From positions 124,001 through 188,000 of the forward strand of contig NZ_WVIE01000005.1 of the NCBI RefSeq assembly GCF_010091945.1: DNA of 64,000 bases. The letters are read 5' to 3'. Numbering within the stretch: the first letter of the stretch is position 1; every line of letters begins with the position of its first letter. Shown one piece after another: positions 9,867 through 13,730 of the stretch. Source of the DNA: Myxacorys almedinensis A. Its GTDB lineage: Bacteria; Cyanobacteriota; Cyanobacteriia; Leptolyngbyales; Leptolyngbyaceae. The position numbers and the translations under genes are program-made. Under the pieces are notes generated by a model. It was not told where the DNA came from. It saw only the letters and a program-made list of their open reading frames with translations, and did not search any database.

Positions 9867-10247
9867 GTGAACCAGAACAACCTTCAAGCCCTGCAATTTG
9901 GCTTGACTAGTCTCGGACGTTTACTAACGTTAATTGGCATTGTGTGGCTGTTGGCTGCCCTGGGATTGGGCTGGCTAGTCAAGTCGTTTTTTGTCTTGTT
10001 GGTGTTGCTGCTGCTGGCTCCGGTAGTCGCGATCGTTGGGCTGCGCTGGTGGCTGCAAAAAAATCTGGTGCAAGCGCCTTGTCCTGTTTGTGACTTTGAG
10101 ATCACAAGTTTAAACCATGCAGAAGTTCAGTGCCCTAGCTGTGGCGAGCCGCTTGCAGCAGAGCATGGCAAGTTTAAGCGGTTGACGCCAGTCGGCACGA
10201 TCGACGTAGACGCGGTAGAGGTGTCGGCTCAAGTCTTAGAAGATTAA
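9867..10247 (+). CDS. Membrane protein with C-terminal zinc ribbon, unknown function
   Basis: 126 residues from a GTG start preceded by CAGGAG at good spacing. Two adjacent hydrophobic helices (about 16-38 and 41-60) form a hairpin, followed by a cytosolic zinc ribbon with CPVC at about 72-75 and CPSC at about 91-94. The topology suggests a small membrane-anchored zinc-ribbon protein. No function is known to me for this cyanobacterial family. It stands alone, convergent with the methyltransferase gene. Confidence 0.8.
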   Translation: MNQNNLQALQFGLTSLGRLLTLIGIVWLLAALGLGWLVKSFFVLLVLLLLAPVVAIVGLRWWLQKNLVQAPCPVCDFEITSLNHAEVQCPSCGEPLAAEHGKFKRLTPVGTIDVDAVEVSAQVLED

Positions 10248-10313
10248 CGCTGAGACGGTTCATCTGGTCTCGGAAAACCAATCCGGTCTCACTCCTCGTA
10301 ACAAATGAACCGT

Positions 10314-11273
10314 TCATTCCGGCGTTTCCTCCTTATCTGGGTCTCGTTTTTGCATGGCTAGCGTGTTGCGTTCCCAAAATACGCCGTCTGTAAATCCTTG
10401 AATTGTTGGGTCAGAGTCTGCTAGCTCTAGCCGCCGCTCGGTTAGCAAACAGTATTCTTCATTCACGTCGATTCCTAAATAGCTTCTGCCCAGTTTTTTT
10501 GCCACGACCGAAGAAGTTCCACTCCCAACAAACGGATCAAACACCAGGTCGTCAACATTAGAACTGGCAAGAATGAGCTTGGCAATCAACTTTTCGCTCT
10601 TTTGGGTCGGATGATCCGTATTTTCTGCCATCGACCAAAACGGAATTGTGATGTCTGTCCAGCAGTTAGAGGGGTGAGTATCGCGAAAATTTCCGCTCCC
10701 CGTTTTTTCCCAATCTTTGGGTGTGCCGTCTTGGGTGCGGTAAGGCGCTTTTACCTGGCGGCGCAACTTGACAGTCTCTATATTGAACGTGTAGTGATTG
10801 GAAACCGTGCAAAACCAGATATCTTCGCTGGCGTTTTTCCAGTTCGCTTTTGCGCCCCGTCCTTTCTCTCGCTCCCATGTGATGCGGTTTCGCACGATGA
10901 AATGACGGGCAGCAACCGTGAAGATAGAGGTAGACGACAACCAATCTCCGCAGATATAGAGCGAAGCCGTGGGTTTGAGCAATGGCTTGAGAGCGATCAG
11001 CAGGTGGTCTAGCCATGCTGTGTAATCTTCGACTGCCCGTTTAGCAAACTTCAATCCATCAAAGTCTTTGGTTAAGTTGTAGGGCGGGTCAAGAATGAGG
11101 AGATCCACAAATGCTGATGGCAAGTGCTGAATCAGGTCTAGGCAATTGCCCTGCATGGTGCCGATCGCAGCATTATGAGCAGAAAGCCGCGATCGCAGCC
11201 GTGCCCGATCGGCATCGGTCAACCTTAAGCTTCGATTTCGGGGCGATCGCAATTTATCAGGAATGGCAGGCAA
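10314..11273 (-). CDS. Site-specific DNA methyltransferase, beta class (N6-A or N4-C), orphan
   Basis: 319 residues. Catalytic motif IV LDPPYN is at 61-66 and the SAM-binding motif DPFVGSGTSS lies in the C-terminal third, so the motif order is that of beta-class amino-methyltransferases; HPTQKSEKLIAKLI just before motif I is also typical. DPPY fits N6-adenine or N4-cytosine methylation. No restriction enzyme gene is next to it, so it is an orphan. Cyanobacteria keep conserved orphan methyltransferases (GATC, CGATCG and GGCC types), and the HIP1 octamer here contains GATC and CGATCG, but which site this enzyme recognises cannot be read from the sequence. Confidence 0.9.
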   Translation of the reverse strand: MPAIPDKLRSPRNRSLRLTDADRARLRSRLSAHNAAIGTMQGNCLDLIQHLPSAFVDLLILDPPYNLTKDFDGLKFAKRAVEDYTAWLDHLLIALKPLLKPTASLYICGDWLSSTSIFTVAARHFIVRNRITWEREKGRGAKANWKNASEDIWFCTVSNHYTFNIETVKLRRQVKAPYRTQDGTPKDWEKTGSGNFRDTHPSNCWTDITIPFWSMAENTDHPTQKSEKLIAKLILASSNVDDLVFDPFVGSGTSSVVAKKLGRSYLGIDVNEEYCLLTERRLELADSDPTIQGFTDGVFWERNTLAMQKRDPDKEETPE

Positions 11274-11429
11274 CTCTAAGTCAACTCCTATCTACTTAGT
11301 TATTTTCAAATGTGCGCCGCTATTTGCGACACCGCTTTAGCATTTTTACTTACGGGCATCGAAAAAACTTAGAATTTACTCAATTTTTCGGAAAGCATAT
11401 TCCGTTGCATTGAATAAAGTAGTAGTGTC

Positions 11430-11472
11430 GCACCTCGTTAAGGGGTGCAGCGCCATCGCCCACTCAATGGGC
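11430..11472 (+). promoter_or_regulatory. Two hairpins in the leader of a 27-codon ORF
   Basis: GCACC/GGTGC (11430-11434 with 11444-11448) and GCCCA/TGGGC (11458-11462 with 11468-11472, 5-nt loop) follow each other ahead of the ribosome site of the small ORF at 11507. This looks like a structured 5' leader; I do not recognise a known riboswitch class. Confidence 0.45.
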
Positions 11473-11506
11473 AAACTCAGATTGAACTACAGAGGATTAA
11501 CTTGTC

Positions 11507-11590
11507 ATGAAAAATTTAGCTTTGCCCATTACTTACGTATATATACGTAAACATTTGAGGAGATATTCGGCTAAACCTATGCAGGAATGA
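11507..11590 (+). CDS. 27-residue leader-type ORF with internal palindrome
   Basis: ATG at 11507, preceded by AGAGGA (11491-11496, 10 nt before the ATG), stop TGA at 11588-11590. The peptide begins MKNLALPITYVY and is basic and Tyr/Arg-rich in its second half. An 18-bp perfect palindrome (11533-11550, TTACGTATATATACGTAA) lies within it. The stop codon is the first three bases of a 10-nt inverted-repeat arm whose partner lies immediately before the ribosome site of the next gene. I do not recognise the peptide; the arrangement suggests a leader peptide that controls the downstream secreted-protein gene, but it may also be fortuitous. Confidence 0.45.
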   Translation: MKNLALPITYVYIRKHLRRYSAKPMQE

Positions 11591-11676
11591 TAAAGCAACC
11601 GCAAATTTGCTGGATTTTCGCCTTCTACTTGACGTAACATCGTGTTGTAGGGGTCATTCAACAAGCTGCTTTATCA
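11588..11676 (+). promoter_or_regulatory. Long-range inverted repeat linking leader-ORF stop to next ribosome site
   Basis: TGATAAAGCA (11588-11597) and TGCTTTATCA (11667-11676) are perfect 10-nt complements separated by 69 nt. The left arm contains the stop of the 27-codon ORF; the right arm ends one base before GAGG (11678-11681), the likely Shine-Dalgarno of the secreted-protein gene. A ribosome at the upstream stop would open the stem. An alternative reading is an 89-bp MITE with 10-bp terminal repeats. Confidence 0.45.
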
Positions 11677-11690
11677 TGAGGTTGCCGCGT

Positions 11691-11951
11691 ATGAGTACCT
11701 TCTCGAAGACCGCATTTGTAGCAACTTTGGCTTTGGGTGCATTGATGGGATTGAATATGAGTCAGGTTAGCGGAGCACCATTCCGCCAATTGGCTGATCT
11801 ATTCTTAGAACAAGCTTCTCACGGTTTTCGTGATCCCATGCGTTCTACCGCTACCAAATCCTTTGGGTCTGCATCTGATTCACTTTATGCCACATTTGAA
11901 CCCGATCCGAACGATCCGCCGACGACAACTGGCGGTTCTGGAACCCGATGA
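11691..11951 (+). CDS. Small exported protein with GSGTR C terminus, unknown function
   Basis: The ATG at 11691 is preferred: GAGG lies 9 nt upstream and the protein then begins with a standard signal peptide (MSTFSKTAFVATLALGALMG...SQVSGAP; cleavage likely after SGA at about residue 28). The frame is open further up to 11607, with another ATG at 11676. The mature part is about 58 residues, with a Ser/Thr-rich middle and an acidic Pro-rich tail (FEPDPNDPPTTT) ending GGSGTR. The C terminus recalls the RGSGR-type peptide signals of heterocyst inhibitors, but the order differs, so that is only a loose resemblance. A terminator follows. Confidence 0.7.
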   Translation: MSTFSKTAFVATLALGALMGLNMSQVSGAPFRQLADLFLEQASHGFRDPMRSTATKSFGSASDSLYATFEPDPNDPPTTTGGSGTR

Positions 11952-11981
11952 GCTTCGACTGATGTTAGATTGAGTAACTCA

Positions 11982-12012
11982 AAAGCCCATGGATACCTTC
12001 TCCGTGGGCTTT
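11982..12012 (+). terminator. Terminator after the secreted-protein gene
   Basis: A 12-nt stem AAAGCCCATGGA (11982-11993)/TCCGTGGGCTTT (12001-12012), with a single mismatch, a 7-nt loop and a T-ending right arm, 30 nt after the stop. Confidence 0.85.
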
Positions 12013-12131
12013 CGACTGTTTAGGTATAGGGTTAAAAGGGTTGAGGATAGGCTCTAAAATAAATGTGAACCTCCGTTAGCCTGTTTACCGAATCTTTTGC
12101 TATAAACCCCTTGAGTTATTTATAACGGATA

Positions 12132-12800
12132 ATGAACTATTCCGAGATTGATATTGCTCCTTTAATTGATCATTCGCTCTTGGGCGCGATCGCAACTTCG
12201 CAGCAGGTTGAGCAGTGGTGTGATGAAGCCGATCGCTACGGATTTGCAACGGTTTGTGTGAATCCTACGCATGTGCAGAAAGCGGTGGAGTTGTTACACA
12301 ATAAAAAACCCAAGGTTTGCACGGTGATCGGGTTTCCGCTCGGCGCAACGACTTCTGCCGTCAAACTCTACGAAGCGCAAGAAGCATCAGAACACGGCGC
12401 GACCGAGCTAGATGTTGTGATCAACCTGGGATGGCTTAGGTCTGGAATGACCAGCGAAGTCCATCGAGAATTAGCAGAGATTCGGGAATCCACCGGGCAG
12501 TCTATCAAAGCCATTCTAGAAATGACGCTTTTGACGGATGCTGAGAAACGTTTAGCTGCTGAAATTTGTTTAGATGCTGGAGTGGCGTTTCTCAAGACCA
12601 GCACGGGCTGGAACGGCAGTGCAACGGTAAGCGATGTGCGGTTGCTGAAAGACCTTGCTCAAGACCGGATTGGTGTTAAGGCGGCGGGGGGAATCCGTAC
12701 CCTCGATCAAGCTTTAGAGCTCGTGCTGGCGGGGGCAACCCGTCTCGGCACGTCTCGCGGTGTTGATCTGCTGCGTCAGCGCGATACCCTAGAAATGTGA
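12132..12800 (+). CDS. deoC: Deoxyribose-phosphate aldolase
   Basis: Cleaves 2-deoxyribose 5-phosphate to glyceraldehyde 3-phosphate and acetaldehyde. 222 residues, the usual bacterial class-I length. DHSLL at 13-17, Asp94 in ATELDVVIN, the Schiff-base Lys155 in [10 protein letters not shown] and the second active-site Lys183 in [10 protein letters not shown] are all present. First gene of a plus-strand run deoC-recO-MFS; 33 nt separate it from recO. Confidence 0.96.
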
Positions 12801-12833
12801 CGCTTGCGACACGCTCCGAAACGAGGATGAGGG

Positions 12834-13730
12834 ATGAGTCGAACTTATAAGGCGATCGGCATTAATTTGAAGGCAACGCTGCTGGGAGAAGCGGATCGGG
12901 TGCTGACCATTCTCACTAAAGAGCATGGCTTGATCCGGGCGGTGGCGATGGGGGCACGCAAACAAAACTCTAAAATGGGTGGGCGAAGCGGCTTGTTTGT
13001 CGTGAATAATTTACTGATTGCCCAGGGAAAAACGCTGGATAAAATTACCCAAGCTGAAACCTTAGAGTCGTATCCGGGGCTAGGACGCACGCTCAAAAAG
13101 CTGACGGCTGGGCAGTATTTGGCAGAACTGGTCTTGAACCAAGCCTTGAGTGAGCAGCCCCAGGAAGACTTGTTCTATCTGCTAAACGAGCATTTAGGAC
13201 GAATCGAGCGATCGCACGACACCCATGTGTTGGCTCACCTCACCCATGCTATCTTTCAACTGCTGGCGATCGCAGGGGTTGCCCCCCAAGTGCATCAGTG
13301 CTGCCTGACGCAAGCCCTTCTCAAGCCTGATGTCAGCGATCCCCACTGGCAGGCAGGCTTTAGCGCGATCGCTGGAGGAGCCGTTACCCTCGAAGCGCTT
13401 GAACACATGCAGGCACAGGATCTGCTACTTTCGGCACGAGTTCGCTCTACAGGGGGAGAATACCGGGCGACGCTTGCCCCAACCGCTGCGATCGCGGCGG
13501 CACCACCGCACCGTTCACCTTCTCCAAACATGACGATCAACGCCGTTGAACTCGCTGTATTTCAGCAGCTAGCGCATGCCGAACTGTCTCAACCGTCCAT
13601 TTCATCCCCTGTGTGGTTGGCATTAGAGAGGCTGCTGCGCCAATATGCTCAATACTATTTCGATCGTCCCATTCGGTCTGCTGCGCTCATTGATACGTGT
13701 TTTGCTCCTGAACTGTCTGAATCGCCATGA
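12834..13730 (+). CDS. recO: DNA repair protein RecO
   Basis: RecO loads RecA onto SSB-coated DNA with RecR in gap repair. 298 residues; N-terminal OB fold with YKAIGINLKATLLGEADRVLTILTKEHGLIRAVAMGARK, then the helical domain with GQYLAELVLNQAL and LLNEHLGRIE. The zinc-finger region is reduced (VHQCCLTQ only), as in many cyanobacterial RecO proteins. The start at 12834 has GGATGAGGG close upstream. The stop overlaps the following MFS start by 4 nt (ATGA). Confidence 0.93.
   Translation: MSRTYKAIGINLKATLLGEADRVLTILTKEHGLIRAVAMGARKQNSKMGGRSGLFVVNNLLIAQGKTLDKITQAETLESYPGLGRTLKKLTAGQYLAELVLNQALSEQPQEDLFYLLNEHLGRIERSHDTHVLAHLTHAIFQLLAIAGVAPQVHQCCLTQALLKPDVSDPHWQAGFSAIAGGAVTLEALEHMQAQDLLLSARVRSTGGEYRATLAPTAAIAAAPPHRSPSPNMTINAVELAVFQQLAHAELSQPSISSPVWLALERLLRQYAQYYFDRPIRSAALIDTCFAPELSESP

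Follow-up and report, generated by a model that had tools for sequence, protein, structure and literature searches.

The cyanobacterium Myxacorys almedinensis A carries a short open reading frame (ORF) upstream of the gene for a small exported protein, and the stop codon of this ORF lies in a segment complementary to the region just in front of the ribosome site of that gene. The question raised by the locus is whether this arrangement is a switch operated by translation of the leader ORF, as was originally predicted from the sequence, or whether the complementary segments have another role, in RNA, in DNA or as the ends of a mobile element. We considered this question using a window, that is, the whole analysed stretch of 64,000 nucleotides (contig NZ_WVIE01000005.1, positions 124,001 to 188,000), and genomes of the same family. 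The features of the locus are listed in Table 1.

Table 1. Features of the leader region and the exported-protein gene (positions in the window).
Feature	Position	Strand	Description
Distal promoter-like element P1	11389..11420	+	CGGAAA 11389-11394, 20 nt, TAAAGT 11415-11420
Conserved block CTCAGATT	11476..11483	+	5' of the leader ribosome site; invariant in 8/8 leader-bearing genomes
Leader ribosome-site region GAGGATTAACTTGTC	11492..11506	+	AGGnTnnCTTGTC kept in leader-bearing genomes, eroded in L005/L015
Putative leader ORF	11507..11590	+	27 codons plus TGA, peptide MKNLALPITYVYIRKHLRRYSAKPMQE; stop TGA 11588-11590
18-bp palindrome TTACGTATATATACGTAA (TTACGTATA/TATACGTAA)	11533..11550	+	within the leader ORF
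Outer left arm AACCT	11574..11578	+	complement of AGGTT 11679-11683
Inner left arm ATGATAAAGCA	11587..11597	+	includes the leader stop; perfectly complementary to 11667-11677 over 11 bp; in minimum-energy folds
Proximal promoter-like element P2, between the arms	11599..11640	+	dyad CCGCAAATTTGCTGG 11599-11613, TGGATT 11611-11616, 18 nt, TAACAT 11635-11640
Right arm TGCTTTATCAT	11667..11683	+	with ribosome site GAGG 11678-11681 and outer AGGTT; TATC and GGTTGC invariant in 10 relatives
Small exported protein	11691..11951	+	86 aa; N-terminal signal-like segment; C-terminal FxPxPNxPPxxTGGSGTR

Genomic setting and the exported protein

The exported-protein gene is flanked by genes for a DNA methyltransferase (10314-11273, minus strand) and deoC (12132-12800), the latter followed by a recO-like gene (12834-13730). 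We compared ten genomes, the window strain included, from the genus of the window and a second genus of the family; the relatives are labelled L003, L004, L005, L011, L012, L014, L015, L016 and L017. L003 belongs to the same genus as the window and is Myxacorys californica WJT36-NPBG1, as follows from a named copy (L033), and the second genus takes in Phormidium tanganyikae FI6-MK23, LEGE 13415, Leptolyngbya sp. Prado105 and FACHB-63. The order of the methyltransferase, the exported-protein gene and deoC is kept in these relatives. Two hairpins seen by eye in front of the leader (11430-11448 and 11458-11472) are present in the window, but are not conserved in the same-genus relative. A 15-nt inverted repeat (87%) at 11979-12015, 3' of the exported-protein gene, is likely a terminator hairpin lacking a T run.

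The small exported protein ending in GGSGTR, as described in the original prediction, was confirmed. Its homologs were found in 21 of the 42 family genomes and are rare outside the family; searches found nothing in Pfam, and in NCBIfam nothing above the cut-off. It represents a cyanobacterial family that has not been described so far and whose C-terminal motif is conserved. One genome (G049) has extra short paralogs (L027, L030, L032), two of them of 42 aa, barely more than the signal-like segment plus SFDPSPNDPPRRTGGSGTR, which gives them the look of exported peptide precursors. In L004, L005, L011, L012, L014, L015 and L017, an in-frame ATG (MLYLHRLLHMSTF...) is situated 27 nt upstream of the conserved start and is preceded by a purine-rich ribosome site, AGGAGG in most cases; this frame is lost in the window genus, and the true start of the protein in the second genus is uncertain.

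The leader ORF

The 27-codon ORF has its own ribosome site, GAGGA at 11492-11496, and contains the perfect 18-bp palindrome, both as originally described. The palindrome is imperfect in L003, and in the second genus the region is not palindromic, the TTACGTA part alone remaining. The leader itself is found in eight of the ten genomes (the window, L003, L004, L011, L012, L014, L016 and L017), where it begins as AGG...CTTGTC...ATG and continues as a frame of 24-28 codons. An AGG-type ribosome site, an ATG and an open frame thus occur together in all eight, as would be expected of a leader ORF with its own ribosome site.

In each of the eight genomes the leader frame is free of stops before the arm, and the other two frames usually carry stops. 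The chance of such an open frame, estimated by dinucleotide shuffles, is 0.13-0.47 per sequence; the product of the eight values is 3e-5 if they are independent, which holds only in part because the genomes are related. The leader stop begins 4, 12, 15 or 16 nt downstream of where the CCTATG segment or left arm begins (8/8), in two registers relative to the arm, and TAA, TAG and TGA are all used.

The encoded peptide drifts almost neutrally, with no clear selection (pN/pS 0.53-1.02), a ratio near 1 being equally expected of an untranslated region. The leaders of L014, L016 and L017 have indels and a changed frame relative to the arm, and TYVxxR-like residues recur in the leaders of the window, L004, L011 and L012. 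Among the leaders we found no conserved peptide that would point to a specific stalling peptide or codon. As the leader peptide is not clearly selected, simple passage or termination of a ribosome, or stalling that does not depend on the peptide, is a better fit than a dedicated stalling sequence.

Searches of the 42 family genomes with a model of the leader and a model of the ribosome-site arm returned this locus alone at convincing E-values; therefore, there is no regulon of such leaders. A possible leader remnant whose frame is very short, TCTTACGTATAAATAC...AAACCTAT, occurs in a more distant genus (L019, genome G020), approximately 200-140 nt before the gene.

Computed masking of the ribosome site

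The perfect inverted repeat just upstream of GAGG is present as originally described, except that its length is 11 bp (11587-11597 with 11667-11677) rather than 10. Other 10-bp inverted repeats are present within these 860 bp, and the region as a whole has an unremarkable folding energy (z about -0.8 to -0.9), but only 0.3% of mononucleotide shuffles have a stem of 10 bp or more linking these two particular zones. The computed probability of pairing between the ribosome site and the leader end is 0.91 in the window, a value reached in none of 150 dinucleotide shuffles, and 0.61-0.92 in the other seven leader-bearing genomes, versus shuffle means of 0.09-0.19. In the two genomes without the leader it is 0.00 and 0.22, and the corresponding mean over 47 other window genes is 0.09, with one gene at 0.76 and none at 0.77 or above. 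In silico, the ribosome site is thus predicted to be sequestered in a stem with the leader end.

In its exact form, the 11-bp stem occurs only in the window strain. The two genera use different arms to mask the ribosome site, namely ATGATAAAGCA in the window and CCTATG-based arms of 7-12 bp in the second genus, where the main arm, ACCTATGAAGA, occupies the position of the outer left arm and pairs with TCTTCATAGGT. The arms comprise 12 bp in L012 (ACCTATGAAGAT/ATCTTCATAGGT), 11 bp in L011, 10 bp in L004, 9 bp in both L014 and L016, and 7 bp in L017; by eye, the helix of L016 and L017 is lengthened by AAGA/TCTT across a one-base bulge. When the second genus is folded alone with RNAalifold, the CCTATG-arm helix is the central one, and the window keeps a five-base remnant of this outer helix, AACCT/AGGTT. 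In L003 the perfect stem is broken, and its pairing of 0.61 corresponds to a shuffle fraction of 0.067. The broken stem of L003 and the promoter-like element between the arms had led us to consider the leader and the stem as incidental, a reading dropped in view of the 9-12 bp arms in most relatives.

Covariation, proposed as a check of the stem, was not found: compensatory double changes occur at none of the 11 pairs of the window stem, and both arms are nearly invariant in the second genus. Classical covariation is absent because the arms that cover this ribosome site in the relatives are shifted or extended.

We also computed how a ribosome on the leader would affect access to the exported-protein start. 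In six of the eight leader-bearing genomes, a footprint at the leader end decreases the cost of exposing the Shine-Dalgarno (SD) sequence and start codon by about 3-12 kcal/mol. With a ribosome at the last leader codons, the cost falls from 13.8 to 7.6-8.3 kcal/mol in the window; with a footprint at the leader end, it falls from 15.2 to 4.4-8.6 in L004, from 12.8 to about 6 in L011, from 18.6 to 6.3-14.7 in L012, from 12.2 to about 8 in L016, and from 11.4 to 7-8 kcal/mol in L017. In the same six genomes, a footprint at codon 1 yields no decrease, and one at codon 9 at most about 4 kcal/mol. In L003 and L014, the computed opening cost is not lowered by a ribosome at the leader end.

Leader and pairing lost together in one clade

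L005 and L015 make up one clade that branches from within the leader-bearing genomes (bootstrap values of 93 and 95 at the two nodes around it). Missing from both are the leader start and frame, the CTCAGATT block and the pairing; what corresponds to P1 is degenerate in them, while the proximal element P2 and the gene are retained. Given its place in the tree, this absence is a single derived loss of the leader, the pairing and the distal element. Such a joint loss suggests that the leader, the stem and the distal promoter constitute one device, falling short of proof because it is one event only.

The device is carried by only two genera, and homologs of the exported protein lacking both the leader and the stem, which the original prediction had named as evidence against it, do exist (L005, L015 and more distant genera). 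Yet the joint loss is what would be expected of a coupled device: the leader and the pairing are present together in eight genomes and absent together in two, in agreement with the predicted coupling between the leader ORF and the stem.

Promoter-like elements

P1 can be aligned in all eight leader-bearing genomes and is degenerate in the two leaderless ones. It gave no match to the sigma-70 consensus; its putative role is to start the leader-bearing transcript. The pattern of P2, ACCGnnnAAnnnnCnGGAnT, 17-18 nt and TAnnAT, has nearly all columns conserved across the ten genomes; its ACCG, GA and TAnnAT are kept in 10/10, the leaderless two included, and its dyad has compensatory changes between the genera. 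P2 looks like a promoter with an operator, the dyad over the -35-like box being the candidate operator. A transcript starting at P2 would lack the leader and the left arm, so that part of the transcripts may bypass the switch. Since P2 lies between the arms and is conserved even where the leader is absent, the main transcript may not contain the leader.

Both P1 and P2 have a CGGA- or TGGA-like core near -35. This recalls the DIF1 motif, TCCGGA, found in the promoters of patS, patX and hetR (PMC7377430), and is noted as a lead only.

Proposed mechanism and alternatives

That two genera have retained both the frame and the pairing, and that one branch has lost both, is suggestive of a switch operated by translation. 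The best reading, and in our judgement a rather probable one, is a leader of the erm/toiL/iraD type, acting as a translational attenuator or by coupling. On a transcript from the upstream promoter, the leader ORF of 24-28 codons would reach with its final codons and its stop into the left arm of a long-range stem, the right arm of which would hold or adjoin the ribosome site of the exported protein. With no ribosome at the leader end, the stem would hide this site; a ribosome translating, pausing or terminating there would displace the left arm, and the exported protein would be made. The output would then track translation of the leader and not the sequence of its peptide, whatever the signal may be. 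Compared with the coupling device first proposed, this reading is amended in that the exact 11-bp stem is confined to the window, the peptide is not clearly selected, and P2 suggests a partial bypass.

If only DNA-level control were operating, the conserved blocks would be promoter and operator sites, transcription would start mainly from P2 (dyad CCGnnnAAnnnnCTGG over the -35 box, TAnnAT as the -10 box), past the leader and the left arm, and the ORF and the complementarity would be incidental or reflect paired protein-binding sites. The conservation of the P2 blocks in all ten genomes irrespective of the leader, together with the compensatory changes in the dyad, is the strongest ground for this explanation, and the nearly neutral pN/pS of the leader agrees with it. 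However, it predicts neither the open frame ending at the arm in 8/8 genomes, nor the use of different arms for pairing with the ribosome site in two genera, nor the joint loss of the leader and the pairing; an RNA stem can accommodate the left-arm bulge of L016 and L017, which would cut a protein-binding site in two. We consider control at the DNA level alone unlikely, and if the P2 promoter and the leader switch are both right, P2 would be the bypass.

The stem could also control translation with the ORF as a bystander, being an RNA thermometer, a small-RNA target, a protein-bound switch or a means of lowering expression. The strong masking computed for free RNA is compatible with this, and comparable long-range stems exist in thermometers and small-RNA-controlled leaders; nevertheless, the open frame, the stop at the arm and the conserved SD and ATG in 8/8 genomes would be superfluous, and no Rfam covariance model matches positions 10000-13000 of the window up to E 5, which makes a stem acting without leader translation quite improbable. 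Still less credence is due to a leader encoding a small functional peptide, with the stem being secondary: the recurring TYVxxR-like residues would agree with it, but their common element may be the TTACGTA nucleotides rather than the residues, the leader is missing from L005 and L015, and we rejected this reading on the pN/pS values and the indels with the frame change in three genomes. Finally, the 11-bp terminal inverted repeat resembles that of a MITE, the main alternative in the original prediction; the 89-bp unit, however, occurs once in its own genome, neither half has another copy in the 42 family genomes, and the relatives have the region in the orthologous position, so that a MITE has practically no probability left.

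Within the preferred reading of a leader-operated switch, a more specific version is conceivable, to which we assign a low probability: a translational gate independent of the peptide sequence, with two promoters serving one gene for an exported, possibly signalling, peptide, where the distal transcript would be silent unless ribosomes reach the leader end and the proximal one bypasses the gate. If so, the cell would signal its translational state through the peptide that it releases.

Comparison with known systems

In hok/mok and other type I toxin mRNAs, a small secreted or membrane product, an upstream ORF and long-range pairing of the ribosome site are combined. The locus described here shares these three traits, but its product has a conserved hydrophilic C-terminus. 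The exported protein also resembles PatX, likewise a small exported cyanobacterial protein with a short Gly/Ser/Arg C-terminal motif (PMC7761841, PMC11298460). The motif of PatX, however, is RG(S/T)GR as opposed to GGSGTR here; in the window and close relatives the C-terminus is TGGSGTR and not this pentapeptide, and there is no association with hetR, the locus being situated between the DNA methyltransferase and deoC in both the window and the relatives.

A survey of leader genes in 2016 reported no reliable data on attenuation in cyanobacteria and no peak of leader-gene distances there (PMC4833913), and our literature search for cyanobacterial attenuation by upstream ORFs (uORFs), with most subscription journals outside its range, yielded no matching described case. 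The locus would hence represent a known kind of device in a phylum where this kind is not securely documented. As it is conserved and has both device-bearing and device-free orthologs, it amounts to a natural experiment and supplies a construct that can be tested directly. Coupling leaders that have no conserved peptide could be recognized along the same lines, by a frame that stays open, stops at the arm and is lost together with the stem.

The attenuators of erm and cat genes, for example ermB (PMC8274638), likewise have a short leader ORF with its own ribosome site and a stem over the ribosome site of the next gene; in them, a leader ribosome rearranges this stem, as is proposed here. In erm, stalling is drug-induced and occurs at a specific codon of a specific peptide, whereas here the peptide is not conserved and the downstream gene encodes an exported protein; we do not place the locus in the drug-stalling subclass, because it has no conserved stalling peptide and no known inducer. 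The toiL uORF of E. coli topAI-yjhQ, a proposed sensor of several translation stresses, resembles the proposed device in that stalled uORF ribosomes unmask an occluded ribosome site, and differs in phylum and gene (PMC12121999). In the E. coli iraD leader, as is proposed here, a masked SD is relieved by translation of a short upstream ORF, but the stop of that ORF overlaps the next start codon and the ORF is controlled by CsrA (PMC5574718); here, about 100 nt separate the leader stop and the next start, and hence the unmasking would occur at a distance. By this comparison, the device would work like the translational attenuators of ermB and toiL and like the uORF coupling of iraD.
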